Shown: one piece after another, positions 3,127 through 42,446 of the stretch | How positions within the stretch are numbered: the first letter of the stretch is position 1 | How the letters are laid out: each line of letters starts with the position of its first letter | Notes under the pieces: model-generated | What the model was told of the DNA's origin: nothing | Databases searched by the model: none | The model's input: only the letters and a program-made list of their open reading frames with translations | DNA from: Planctomycetaceae bacterium | Lineage (GTDB): Bacteria > Planctomycetota > Planctomycetia > Pirellulales > UBA1268 | Direction of reading: 5' to 3' | DNA: 48,966 nt | Assembly: GCA_011523305.1 (NCBI GenBank) | Contig: WTHB01000066.1 | Coordinates: 1 to 48,966 of the forward strand | Translations under genes and position numbers: made by a program

Positions 3127-4056
3127 ATGTCTCGCACGACGATCGCTGTGGTCGATTCGAAACGCCTGCTGGCGGTCTTTGGGCCGCGCGATCAGCACCT
3201 CCGCCGAATCCGTGCCGCCCTCGGTGTTGGCGTCTCGGCCCGAGACGATGCCATTCACATCGAAGGCGACGAAGCGTCCGTCCAACGGGCCGCCGAGGTG
3301 TTCGAAGGGCTCGATCAGATCGCCCGCCGTCAAGGTGTGGTGACCGATGCCGATGTCGATCGGTTCCTGAAGACCGACTCGGTGTCCCCCGCATCGTCAG
3401 CCCACGAGGCGATCGAAGTGCAACGCCCGGGGGGCCAGGTTGTGCCGCGATCGGCCGGGCAGGCTGCCTATGTCCGGGCCATCCGCGACCATGATGTGGT
3501 CCTCTGTGAAGGTCCGGCGGGCTGCGGCAAGACGTTCCTGGCTGTCGCGATGGCGGTCTCCGCCCTTCGCAGTGAGCAGGTGACGAAAATTGTTCTCGTC
3601 CGGCCTGCCGTCGAAGCGGGTGAAAGCCTGGGGTTCCTCCCCGGTGACCTCCAGGCCAAGATCAATCCATACCTACGCCCTCTGCTGGACGCCCTGCGGG
3701 AGATGATCGACTTCGATCTGCTCAAACGGCTGACCGAGCAGGATGTCATTGAGATGATACCGTTGGCCTACATGCGTGGCCGGACGCTCAACAACGCCTT
3801 CATCATTCTCGATGAAGCCCAGAACACGACCGCCGCTCAGATGAAAATGTTTCTCACCCGACTTGGCATCGGCTCGAAGATGGTCATTTCCGGGGACACC
3901 ACCCAGATCGATCTGCCACCCAATCGCCGAAGTGGCTTGATTGATGCGATGGAACGGCTCGCCGGCGTCTCTGGCTGCCGAAAAATCAGCCTGGGTGGGG
4001 CGGATATTGTCCGCCATCCACTCGTCCAGCGCATTGTTGACGCTTACGAGGAATAA
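3127..4056 (+). CDS. phoH: PhoH family ATPase (YbeZ-like)
   Basis: PhoH/YbeZ proteins are cytoplasmic P-loop ATPases with a helicase-like fold. They work with the endoribonuclease YbeY in rRNA and ribosome quality control. The N-terminal ~110 residues form a KH-like region (FGPRDQHLRRIRAALGVG). The ATPase follows, with Walker A GPAGCGKT at about residues 129-136, VRPAVEAGESLGFLPGD, and Walker B FIILDEAQNTT. The start is the ATG at 3127; a TTG immediately before it is less likely. At 309 aa it matches the usual length. ybeY lies two genes downstream, with a 7TM-HD gene between. That order (phoH, 7TM-HD, ybeY) is also known from Firmicutes. Confidence 0.96.
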   Translation: MSRTTIAVVDSKRLLAVFGPRDQHLRRIRAALGVGVSARDDAIHIEGDEASVQRAAEVFEGLDQIARRQGVVTDADVDRFLKTDSVSPASSAHEAIEVQRPGGQVVPRSAGQAAYVRAIRDHDVVLCEGPAGCGKTFLAVAMAVSALRSEQVTKIVLVRPAVEAGESLGFLPGDLQAKINPYLRPLLDALREMIDFDLLKRLTEQDVIEMIPLAYMRGRTLNNAFIILDEAQNTTAAQMKMFLTRLGIGSKMVISGDTTQIDLPPNRRSGLIDAMERLAGVSGCRKISLGGADIVRHPLVQRIVDAYEE

Positions 4057-4105
4057 TTGAGGACCGCTCCGCCACGAATTAGGCCACCTGCCCCAGCATG
4101 ACGCG

Positions 4106-6700
4106 ATGAGCATCGCTCCCTCCTCCTTCCGCCGCCGCATTCGCAGAGCCTCCTCCATGGAGGGCCCGCAAGGGTTCTGGGGGAATCTGCTGGAAACGAT
4201 CTCGCGTTCAGAGGTTTTGGTGCGACTGGGCCTCTGCCTGCTGGCCGGCTTGGTCCTGCTGATCCTGCTGCATGGCTGGTCACAACCCTTCGCCTTCCGG
4301 GTCGGCGGGGTCGCTCCACGGGGAGTGGTCTCCCGGGTGCCGTTTGAAAAACCCGACTTGGACCGCACCCGCGCCGCTCAGGAACGCGCCACGGCCCAGG
4401 TCCGGGTGGTCTACATCCAGGACCGGGCTCCCATCCTGCGAATTCGTGATGGCCTGAAGAACCGGGTTGCTGAAATTGCCGCTGCCGAAACCCTCGCCAG
4501 CGTTTCGAGGGCTGCCTGGCTTGAGTTTGCGCCGGAGACTGCCCCCGTGCTGGAGCGACTGCCGGTCCCCGCCCCCGGCACCGTCGTTGCCCCACCGGAA
4601 CCACCGATCGCACCTGACCCACCAGATCTGCCACTGTCGCGGAGCCCCACAACAGATCTGAACGAAGCGGCGTCTGATGACGATGTCCTGCGGGCAGTGG
4701 ACGAGGCTGTTGATCCGGCCGAGACCAACCCGCCCCCAACCACGCCGTCGACCACTCCCGCGGGAGATCTCGACCTTGCTGCCGCGGTCACCCCGGCTGG
4801 TGATTCCTCCGATCCCACCGGCGAACAGCCCACACAACCTGCTGACCCTCCGCAGCCGCAGTCATCGGTCACTGAATTTTCCCGACAAAAGCTTCAGGCC
4901 GAGCAGGCCTTCACAGGATTCCGAAGTCGGGTCGGCACCAAGGAAAAGCTGCTCGATTTCAACAAAGCGATTGACCGGGCCTTCGCCCCACTCGAAACGC
5001 AGGGTGTGCTCGAAAAAATTCAGCACGGTCTCGATGAAGGCAGCCAGACCGAGATCGATGTCCACCCCTTGGGCAACGCAACCGAAATGCTGCGGGCCCA
5101 GGTCGCCGATGTCTTGCTGGGCGAAGCCAAGATTCGGCTGAAAGCCCGGCTCAATGAAGAACTCGGCGCCGGCCCCCTCACCGATCGGGTGTTCACCTGG
5201 ATCGACCCCCGACTGACCGGCTCACTCGAACTAGACACCGAGGCAACCGCCAAGGCCAAGGTCGAAGCGATTGAGAAAACGCCCAAGCAGTTTGTTCGCT
5301 ATGCAGCCGGTGACCTGCTCGTGCCGGCAGGCAAGGAAATTACCAGTGCGGAATTGACCCTGCTCAAACTGGAGCACGACGAGGCACTGCGTCAGCAGCC
5401 CTTGGGGGAACGAATCGGGCGAGCGGCCTCGTTGCTGGGCCTGTTCGTCGCCATGTTCACCCTGGCCGGGTTCTATCTCCACCTCCACCACCGCGATGTT
5501 CTGGTCGATCTGGGGCATGTCGCCACGCTCTTGGTTTTGGTGGTCGCCACCATGGCGGCCTGCTCGTTTGCCGCAGGTGATGCCTGGCGGGCTGAAATCC
5601 TCCCACTGCTGGTGTTCGCCATGACCGTGGCGATTGCCTATGACGAAGATCTTGCCCTCCTGCTGGTGGCTGAAGTTGCCTTGGTCCTGGTGGTCGGTCT
5701 CGGCCAGGGACTGGCTGACTACATCACGCTGACGGCGGCCTCGGCGGCCACCATCTTCTGGATGGGCCAGATTCGCAGCCGCAGCAAGCTGATCTATGTC
5801 GGGCTTTGGGCCGGCGGTGTTGCCATGACAACTCAGATTGGCGCGAACCTGCTGGAAGAACACCCCCTCGATCTCTACCTCTTGTTCGAGGCTGCCCGAA
5901 CCGGTGTCTGGACCGTGCTGGCGGGCTTCCTGATGACCGGCCTCCTGCCGTTTGTGGAAAAAACCTTTGGGGTGCTGACGGACCTCAGCCTGCTCGAAAT
6001 TGGAGACATCGCCCACCCGCTGCTCCAAGAACTCGTCCGCCGGGCCCCCGGCACCTACAACCACTCAATTAATGTGGCCAGCATTGGCGAGGCTGCCGCC
6101 GAAGCGATCGGGGCCCGAGGTCTCCTCGTTCGGGTCGGCGCCTATTTCCATGACGTCGGCAAGATGCTCAAGCCGGCTTATTACGTTGAGAACCAGGGTC
6201 GACAAGAGAATCGTCACGAAGCCCTCGTGCCGGCTATGAGCAGCCTGATCATCATCGCGCATGTCAAAGAGGGCGCGGAACTGGCTCGGCAATACAACCT
6301 GCCACGGCCCATCGTCGACCTACTCTTGGAGCATCACGGCACCACCCTGGTCGAATACTTCTATCGGCGGGCAGCAGAGAAGTCGCAGGCCGACCCCAAC
6401 GGCAGCGGCGTCGACGAACAGACCTTCCGCTACCCCGGCCCCCGACCGAGCACTCGGGAATCAGCCGTGCTGATGCTCTCCGATGCCGTCGAGAGTGCCA
6501 GTCGCTCCCTCAGCGAGCCGACCCCAGCCCGCATCTCCAGCCTAGTTCATGATCTGGCGATGAAGCGACTGCTTGATGGCCAATTCGAAGACTGCGGGCT
6601 GACGCTGGAGGAACTGCAGTTGATCGAGCAAAGTCTGGTGAAGAGCCTGACGGCGGTCTATCACGGCCGGGTCAAATACCCGGACCAGAGGACAGCCTAG
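4106..6700 (+). CDS. 7TM-HD family phosphohydrolase (PgpH/YqfF-like)
   Basis: Membrane protein of the 7TMR-HD family; the studied member PgpH hydrolyses cyclic di-AMP. An N-terminal transmembrane segment lies near residues 36-56. A long extracytoplasmic 7TM-HDED region follows to about residue 440, then a block of membrane segments at about 445-611. The cytoplasmic HD domain contains NHS (His near 653), the metal-binding pair in YFHDVGKM (about 681-682), LLEHHGTT and LSDAVE. Unusually, the extracytoplasmic part carries a Pro/Thr/Asp-rich low-complexity insert at about residues 150-255, which makes the protein (864 aa) longer than typical PgpH. It sits between phoH and ybeY as in Firmicutes. 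Substrate is inferred from family only. Confidence 0.9.
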   Translation: MSIAPSSFRRRIRRASSMEGPQGFWGNLLETISRSEVLVRLGLCLLAGLVLLILLHGWSQPFAFRVGGVAPRGVVSRVPFEKPDLDRTRAAQERATAQVRVVYIQDRAPILRIRDGLKNRVAEIAAAETLASVSRAAWLEFAPETAPVLERLPVPAPGTVVAPPEPPIAPDPPDLPLSRSPTTDLNEAASDDDVLRAVDEAVDPAETNPPPTTPSTTPAGDLDLAAAVTPAGDSSDPTGEQPTQPADPPQPQSSVTEFSRQKLQAEQAFTGFRSRVGTKEKLLDFNKAIDRAFAPLETQGVLEKIQHGLDEGSQTEIDVHPLGNATEMLRAQVADVLLGEAKIRLKARLNEELGAGPLTDRVFTWIDPRLTGSLELDTEATAKAKVEAIEKTPKQFVRYAAGDLLVPAGKEITSAELTLLKLEHDEALRQQPLGERIGRAASLLGLFVAMFTLAGFYLHLHHRDVLVDLGHVATLLVLVVATMAACSFAAGDAWRAEILPLLVFAMTVAIAYDEDLALLLVAEVALVLVVGLGQGLADYITLTAASAATIFWMGQIRSRSKLIYVGLWAGGVAMTTQIGANLLEEHPLDLYLLFEAARTGVWTVLAGFLMTGLLPFVEKTFGVLTDLSLLEIGDIAHPLLQELVRRAPGTYNHSINVASIGEAAAEAIGARGLLVRVGAYFHDVGKMLKPAYYVENQGRQENRHEALVPAMSSLIIIAHVKEGAELARQYNLPRPIVDLLLEHHGTTLVEYFYRRAAEKSQADPNGSGVDEQTFRYPGPRPSTRESAVLMLSDAVESASRSLSEPTPARISSLVHDLAMKRLLDGQFEDCGLTLEELQLIEQSLVKSLTAVYHGRVKYPDQRTA

Positions 6701-41449: not shown

Positions 41450-41524
41450 CGGGGCGTAGCTCAGCCTGGCTAGAGCGCCTGGTTTGGGACCAGGAGGTCG
41501 CATGTTCGAATCATGTCGCCCCGA
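41450..41524 (+). tRNA. tRNA-Pro (anticodon UGG)
   Basis: A 75-base cloverleaf: acceptor stem CGGGGCG with CGCCCCG (7 bp, perfect), D arm GCTC...GAGC, and anticodon stem CCTGG/CCAGG around TTTGGGA, giving anticodon TGG. The T arm is GCATG-TTCGAAT-CATGT, and the discriminator is A. No CCA is encoded after it. The C1-G72 pair and UGG anticodon identify proline. It stands between parB and a terminator, as a single-gene unit. Confidence 0.97.
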
Positions 41525-41530
41525 CTGAAG

Positions 41531-41556: not shown

Positions 41557-41699
41557 CGGCGTTTCTGGGGAGGGCTTGAGAACATGAACTGCGGGGTTTT
41601 CTCCAGAAAAAGCAGCTCCGCCCCTATCGTGCTGCCACGCCGAGCCGCCCGTTGAGGCCCGTAGCAGAACTTTCCTGAAAAAAAACCCCCCGGAATATT

Positions 41700-41727
41700 T
41701 TGACTTTCATTCGGGGTGTGCCATTGT
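41700..41727 (+). promoter_or_regulatory. Candidate promoter of the Cys-repeat gene
   Basis: TTGACT (41700-41705) is a good -35 match; 16 bases later CATTGT is a poor -10. The leader contains a 6-bp hairpin, CCGAAT/ATTCGG around AAAGG at 41764-41780, followed by a run of six T, which could act as a transcription attenuator. AAGGAGG lies eight bases before the ATG. Confidence 0.35.
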
Positions 41728-41817
41728 TGAGCGAAGCCGCGGTCGCCTCCGCCGCTTCACCTTCCGAATAAAGGATTCGGTGGTTTTTTCCTGTCGCGTG
41801 TCAAGGAGGCTCACCCC

Positions 41818-42279
41818 ATGAGTCGTGCATTCTACCTCAGCGGTCTTTCAGCCGCTCTTCTGTTGTGTTTCGGCACCTTCGCCGAAGCTGGTCTTTTTGG
41901 TAACCATCACCGGGCTCATGGAAATTGCTGCGAGCCTGCCTGTGGTTGCGAACCCACCTGTGGTTGCGAGCCGACCTGCGGTTGCGAGCCTGTCTGTGCT
42001 GCTGAGCCCACCTGCGGCTGCGAGCCTGCCTGTGGCTGCGAGCCTGCCTGCTGTGACAGCTGCTGCGGTCATCAGCACCGTCACTGCAGCCTGATGGAGC
42101 GGATCCGCTGCCATCACCAGGCCAAGAAGGCCCGCCGTGCCGCACGTCGCTGCTGCAACAACTGCTGCGAGCCAGCTTGCGGTTGCGAGCCAGCCTGTGG
42201 CTGTGAGCCTGCTTGCGGCTGCGAGCCGACCTGCGGTTGCGAGCCGACCTGCGGCTGCGAGCCGTCCTGCGGCGTCTGA
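41818..42279 (+). CDS. Secreted cysteine-repeat protein (CEPxCG units)
   Basis: 153 aa with a clear Sec signal peptide (LSGLSAALLLCFGTFAEA, cleavage after about residue 24). The mature part consists of seven six-residue units of the type CEP[A/T/V]CG, a basic His- and Arg-rich core (CCGHQHRHCSLMERIR, then CHHQAKKARRAARRCC) and six more units. It holds about 34 cysteines after the signal peptide and a Glu-Pro in every unit. I do not recognise a named family. Cys-rich exported repeat proteins are known in planctomycetes, whose envelopes are rich in disulfide-linked protein, so a structural or metal-binding envelope role is plausible. Strong AAGGAGG and a strong terminator suggest high expression. 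Confidence 0.85.
   Translation: MSRAFYLSGLSAALLLCFGTFAEAGLFGNHHRAHGNCCEPACGCEPTCGCEPTCGCEPVCAAEPTCGCEPACGCEPACCDSCCGHQHRHCSLMERIRCHHQAKKARRAARRCCNNCCEPACGCEPACGCEPACGCEPTCGCEPTCGCEPSCGV
41929..42054 (+). repeat. In-frame 18-bp tandem repeat, block 1 (7 units)
   Basis: Seven 18-base units of the form TGCGAGCCxxCCTGYGGY encode CEPxCG; the fourth and fifth units are degenerate (CEPVCA, AEPTCG) and the last ends in CC. Synonymous changes between units show that the amino-acid pattern is conserved. Confidence 0.9.
42166..42273 (+). repeat. In-frame 18-bp tandem repeat, block 2 (6 units)
   Basis: Six perfect-length units encode CEPxCG (three Ala, two Thr, one Ser at the variable place) and run to the penultimate codon. 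Same unit as block 1, so the gene probably grew by unit duplication on both sides of the basic core. Confidence 0.9.
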
Positions 42280-42334
42280 ATGAAAAAGCTTGAAGATTGA
42301 CACCCCCTTGAACGTCAACCTTCATGCCACATCG

Positions 42335-42368
42335 ACCCGGCCGGATCCCCATCCGGCCGGGTTTTTTT
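42335..42368 (+). terminator. Strong intrinsic terminator after the Cys-repeat gene
   Basis: Perfect 12-bp stem (ACCCGGCCGGAT with ATCCGGCCGGGT), CCCC loop, then a T-run. It lies between this gene and the convergent sulfatase gene. Confidence 0.95.
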
Positions 42369-42446
42369 GTGGACAGAGCCTGACGGCCACACCGAGCAGG
42401 TTCACGGACTCACTACAAGCGTCACAGGGCATTCTTCGCCCAGGGC

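Follow-up and report, generated by a model that had tools for sequence, protein, structure and literature searches.

A secreted CEPxCG-repeat protein of Pirellulales as a candidate cross-linker or filler of the planctomycete protein cell wall

According to PMC2754498, where Liesack 1986 is cited, the cell wall of planctomycetes is a proteinaceous sacculus containing disulfide bonds. In Gemmata obscuriglobus, SDS-resistant walls consist mainly of YTV proteins (PMC5287468). These proteins are restricted to the class Planctomycetia, and one YTV gene was reported as essential in Planctopirus limnophila (PMC10632474). Tandem Cys-Pro pentamers and hexamers, thought to cross-link via disulfides, are found in the mammalian high-sulfur keratin-associated proteins (Keratin_B2_2, PF13885). 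In chlamydiae, members of the same superphylum as planctomycetes, the Cys-rich outer-membrane proteins OmcA and OmcB are disulfide-linked and strengthen an unusual wall; we know of no CEPxCG units in them.

Here we analyse a gene from a 48,966-nucleotide stretch of planctomycete DNA (further referred to as the window), which encodes a protein built from CEPxCG units. Like YTV proteins (PF07639), several of which carry CEPxC units at the N- or C-terminus, the window protein appears to be secreted, is Cys-rich and repetitive, and comes from the same organisms. Unlike them, it has 153 aa instead of hundreds to about 1000, and its body consists of CEPxCG units instead of YTVCKPVYET, with no YTV repeat. 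Searches of Pfam, NCBIfam and PDB with this protein gave nothing above the cut-off, as the sequence-only reading had stated. The Pfam scan returned solely a sub-threshold Trypan_PARP match, the YTV repeat did not exceed its gathering score, and neither the metallothionein family models nor Keratin_B2_2 matched. Two distant planctomycete relatives score 19.1 and 17.6 bits against Keratin_B2_2 (cut-off 27); given unrelated organisms and a window protein without a match, compositional convergence is the likely reason for this resemblance. The parallel with OmcA and OmcB is an analogy only, the window protein having no Pfam match. The strings CEPACG and CEPTCG were found in no open paper.

The features of the locus are listed in Table 1. 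The 13 units are divided by the core into seven N-terminal and six C-terminal ones; ten are exact and three are variants (CEPVCA, AEPTCG and CEPACC). Of 35 cysteines, 34 lie past the predicted cut between AEA and G. The core comprises 38 residues (CCDSCCGHQHRHCSLMERIRCHHQAKKARRAARRCCNN), including five His and eight Cys. No more than one exact unit appeared in any of 20,000 shuffled versions of the mature sequence. Pro codons differ between the units (CCT 5, CCG 4, CCC 2, CCA 2) while the peptide is kept, hence selection acts on the protein and the repeat is not a young DNA repeat. Two antisense open reading frames, 41837-42352 (-) and 41848-42318 (-), were rejected as mirror frames made by the repeat. 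AlphaFold2 produced no usable fold (mean pLDDT 41). Thus the 13-unit architecture and the approximately 34 mature cysteines of the sequence-only reading agree with our counts; its acidic-basic-acidic layout holds here and in the orthologues, where the helix AK..RRA.R is kept.

Table 1. Features of the CEPxCG locus (window coordinates)
Feature	Position	Strand	Basis
-35-like TTGACT, putative promoter	41700..41705	+	within conserved block (AAAAACCCCCCGGAA..TTTGAC) starting near 41680; conserved in seven same-genus orthologues, further upstream not
Leader hairpin 1 (GAAGC..GCTTC)	41733..41758	+	98.4% of cells paired, 2 pairs changed on both sides
Leader hairpin 2 (ACC..CCGAAT / ATTCGG..GGT)	41759..41784	+	96.4% of cells paired, 1 pair changed on both sides
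T-run after hairpin 2	41784..41789	+	not conserved; orthologues carry GTTTCCCG, GTTTTTCTC or GTCTATC
Shine-Dalgarno AAGGAGG	41803..41809	+	sequence; GTGTCAAGGAG invariant in orthologues
CEPxCG repeat protein, 153 aa	41818..42279	+	open frame; purifying selection, dN/dS 0.05-0.15
Signal peptide MSRAFYLSGLSAALLLCFGTFAEA, predicted cut before GLFG	41818..41889	+	n/h/c regions judged by eye; hardly varies among orthologues
N-terminal acidic Cys block, 7 units, charge -7	41926..42048	+	sequence count
Basic core CCDSCC..ERIRCHHQAKKARRAARRCCNN, charge +7	42049..42162	+	sequence; within a poor AlphaFold2 model the helix scores best
C-terminal acidic Cys block, 6 exact units, charge -6	42163..42276	+	sequence count
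Intrinsic terminator GACCCGGCCGGAT..ATCCGGCCGGGTTTTTTT, 13-bp	42334..42370	+	scan; TGCCACATCGACCCGGCCGG invariant in seven orthologues

Six further genomes of the genus contain orthologues with 74-89% identity, and dN/dS across the seven sequences is as low as given in Table 1; the gene is real and strongly conserved. The orthologues retain the signal peptide, the start GLFG, the core entry CCDS..C, the basic helix AK..RRA.R and the two Cys blocks. The number of units varies among the orthologues at a constant overall layout, further referred to as class A, and of the five His in the core a single one is conserved. The -35-like box, both leader hairpins, the Shine-Dalgarno sequence, the reading frame and the terminator are conserved as one block spanning from approximately 41680 to the end of the terminator, while the flanks differ between genomes and the neighbouring genes change. 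In the window this block is preceded by tRNA-Pro (41450-41525), and the upstream DNA is unrelated in locus L039 and in loci L040, L042 and L044. Hence the gene is a self-contained and probably monocistronic unit. The class A leader has one copy in the source genome; together with the gene it was found in seven of ten same-genus genomes, and the leader itself is missing from all 49 genomes outside the genus that were searched. Within the phylum, exact tandem CEPxCG DNA is uncommon, with 2 positive genomes among 294 sampled.

At the putative promoter the consensus -10 box is absent, and the sigma-70 scan makes no call there. In the alignment of seven class A leaders 97.5% of cells are paired over both hairpins, with three double-changed pairs, and none of 500 shuffles reached the observed pairing. 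The ribosome site contains GGAGGC, to which the loop of hairpin 1, GCCTCC (41745-41750), is complementary. Of the expression signals proposed in the sequence-only reading, the strong ribosome site and the terminator were both recovered and are conserved in the orthologues. Its leader hairpin with a T-run was located by the scan at 41764-41789; conservation extends to the hairpins and not to the T-run. As the latter is private to the source genome, the leader was rejected as an attenuator.

The link to the wall comes from the YTV proteins, whose repeats are present in all 59 sampled genomes. The source genome encodes one on contig C15 (locus L117, ~3785-6224, minus strand), and pieces from its two halves match PF07639 with E-values of 2e-69 and 3e-39; the gene is interrupted by a scaffold gap of Ns. 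This protein has CSRCEPTCAAP near the N-terminus, after the signal peptide, and its C-terminal end reads CEPTCGSEPTCGCED / REVPCEPTCGSEPTCGCED. In 29 sampled Cys-rich YTV frames, EPxC occurs 11 times per 510 residues in the tails, 7 per 1260 in the heads and 23 per 16514 inside. It is thus approximately 15-fold denser in the tails than inside (odds ratio 15.8, Fisher p 2e-9) and is also enriched in the heads (p 0.004), both values being uncorrected for phylogeny. The window protein therefore shares a sequence element enriched at the termini of wall proteins, which, given the shortness of EPxC, could be due to convergence. It is also of the secreted and Cys-rich type characteristic of YTV proteins, with a conserved signal-peptide-like N-terminus and 34 Cys per 129 mature residues. 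The signal peptide and the common motif lend support to the envelope location suggested earlier.

We infer the localisation, disulfide bonds and function of the window protein as follows. With a probability of about 60%, it is a secreted structural protein, serving as a disulfide cross-linker or filler of the planctomycete protein cell wall, with its basic helix used for docking. The protein would be exported via its signal peptide, and outside the cytoplasm disulfides would join the two acidic CEPxCG blocks both within and between molecules. The basic amphipathic core may dock on acidic partners, such as other copies, wall proteins, or lipid A/peptidoglycan. The large YTV proteins, with which the CEPxCG/EPxC motif is shared, would then be accompanied by a small cross-linker or filler interacting with them. 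The wall role is further supported by the conservation of the gene as a unit of its own under purifying selection and by the many secreted CEPxC-rich relatives in Pirellulales that carry signal peptides or lipoboxes.

Other functions have to be weighed against this one. An extracytoplasmic metallothionein-like protein, whose thiols and His would keep soft metals such as Zn or Cu bound at the surface, would account for the 34 Cys and several His of the mature protein and for the Cys-x-Cys spacing at every unit junction, and high cysteine content and small size are common to bacterial metallothioneins. We nevertheless consider it improbable: there is no metallothionein family match, no metal-resistance neighbours were seen around the gene, and a signal peptide is present, unlike in the characterised bacterial metallothioneins, which to our knowledge are cytosolic. 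Metal binding via a His-rich core, as proposed in the sequence-only reading, is unsupported, since the core His are not conserved. To about the same low degree we credit an extracellular adhesive, holdfast or matrix protein that would use disulfides and charge for attachment or biofilm formation outside the wall. Sessile Rhodopirellula cells do attach through a holdfast substance (PMC2754498), and a secreted, highly charged protein with a self-associating layout would suit this role; however, the motif common to YTV wall proteins points to the wall, and no polysaccharide or adhesin domain was found in Pfam. Least probable is a soluble, non-structural protein of the large planctomycete periplasm that would buffer redox state or store thiols in a regulated manner. 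The very high thiol content and a dedicated leader suggestive of regulated expression fit it, whereas an acidic-basic-acidic arrangement with expanded repeats is found more typically in structural proteins, and the Pfam search revealed no thiol-oxidoreductase domain.

The main objection to the disulfide role of the cross-linker comes from the oxidation machinery. A search limited to DsbB, VKOR and Thioredoxin_4 found none of the three in the source genome (95% complete). VKOR is missing from all 36 sampled genomes of the family, the source genome included, although 10 of the 23 genomes sampled elsewhere have it. This absence contrasts with the extremely Cys-rich set of secreted proteins. Oxidation by another route is possible, as is retention of the thiols for metal.

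A search for CEP-C-G repeats in planctomycetes, suggested in the sequence-only reading, yielded many homologues with the repeat, so that reading is not refuted on this point. The contig scan across genomes gave 76 loci, all titled planctomycete except one from Nocardia (L098); the latter contains a 56-aa open frame without the layout and was taken as a chance match. In the protein search antisense matches reach E ~3e-8, so E-values alone are weak evidence in low-complexity CEPxC sequence; those from 1e-8 to 1e-3 alone were not taken as homology, and conserved layouts serve as better evidence. Besides class A, at least four further layouts were distinguished in the reading frames of the scanned loci. 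Class B combines MKRMLFLGALVLGVTVCSQSFGFELLDRMLG and three Cys blocks with linkers of the type LFGGLKGLF or GLLSKLFG, and its tail is conserved; class C begins with MRRVIVPAL..ASAFGLFDKLC; a further class is built around MKYYKKVC..CVT.V.YRRVLCPC; and lipoprotein-like members have WSEWHNDPPRCCDPC or YVDPWINHPADC. Such cores together with CEPxCG repeats are seen in lipobox-bearing Cys-rich proteins at L054, L055, L092, L126, L104, L106, L108, L110 and L111, which are perhaps membrane-anchored counterparts. The C-termini of class B (e.g. L089, L091, L099) end with a strongly conserved tail, DPSAS..RRVIQASAxYVR or DASA..VIAVSRTVxxK, a possible sorting or anchoring signal. The source genome has a class B paralogue split across contig ends (C137:22508-22605 and C6). 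The class B marks, namely the signal peptide ..SQSFGF[DE]LLDRMLG, the linkers LFGGLKGLF/GLLSKLFG and the C-terminal DASA..VSRTV or DPSAS..RRVIQASA, are absent from the window protein. No shared ancestry was detected between the class A core and the class B linkers, as an HMM of the third class B linker scores class A no better than shuffles; hence the classes are grouped by architecture and not by proven descent. The window protein belongs to a widespread, unnamed group of secreted CEPxC-rich proteins in Pirellulales.

Class B genes have a leader of their own. It is approximately 180 nt long, quite unlike the class A leader, and conserved across genera of the family, being found in 28 of 36 family genomes, usually as a single copy, and in none of 23 genomes outside it. 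Among 13 fetched cases, 12 have the start of a class B gene 117-133 nt downstream of the leader element used for the search; the remaining one was missed by the start-site pattern, and its sequence has the same MKRM gene start. Such structured leaders were observed at L017, L019, L023, L028, L030, L031, L033-L038, L048 and L076, as well as in the source genome (L115:4253-4437). Cobalamin riboswitches lie near three class B genes on the opposite strand (L017:822-1043 (-), L031:2557-2776 (+) and L048:3284-3514 (-)). The consensus structure contains seven pairs with double changes (0 of 500 shuffles). Its outer helix pairs CGUCGGGC with GGCUCGAUG across the start codon and is invariant, hence it gains no covariation support. 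In Rhodopirellula-type leaders the Shine-Dalgarno sequence lies within a GGAG..CUCC hairpin, and their covariation is inflated by register shifts. Rfam gave no match to the leaders of either class, returning only tRNA-Pro, sub-threshold noise and the neighbouring cobalamin riboswitches. Therefore, translational regulation by the class A and class B leaders is a prediction.

A broader suggestion, which we advance tentatively and with clearly less confidence than the wall role itself, is that Pirellulales build part of the wall from an unnamed multi-class CEPxC-repeat family, whose genes would be translationally controlled by dedicated structured leaders. The leader of each class could cover the ribosome site or the start codon, with the loop GCCUCC against GGAGGC in class A and the outer helix in class B, perhaps sensing cysteine supply or wall state. 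The wall has long been regarded as a disulfide-stabilised protein sacculus, and besides the YTV giants few of its parts have been named. For the missing cross-linker, a small conserved CEPxCG family with units of the type found at YTV termini offers a direct candidate that can be tested. With DsbB and VKOR both apparently lacking in this genome, one has to ask how so many disulfides would form. Finally, the conserved leaders suggest that translation of wall proteins may be under the control of RNA structure.
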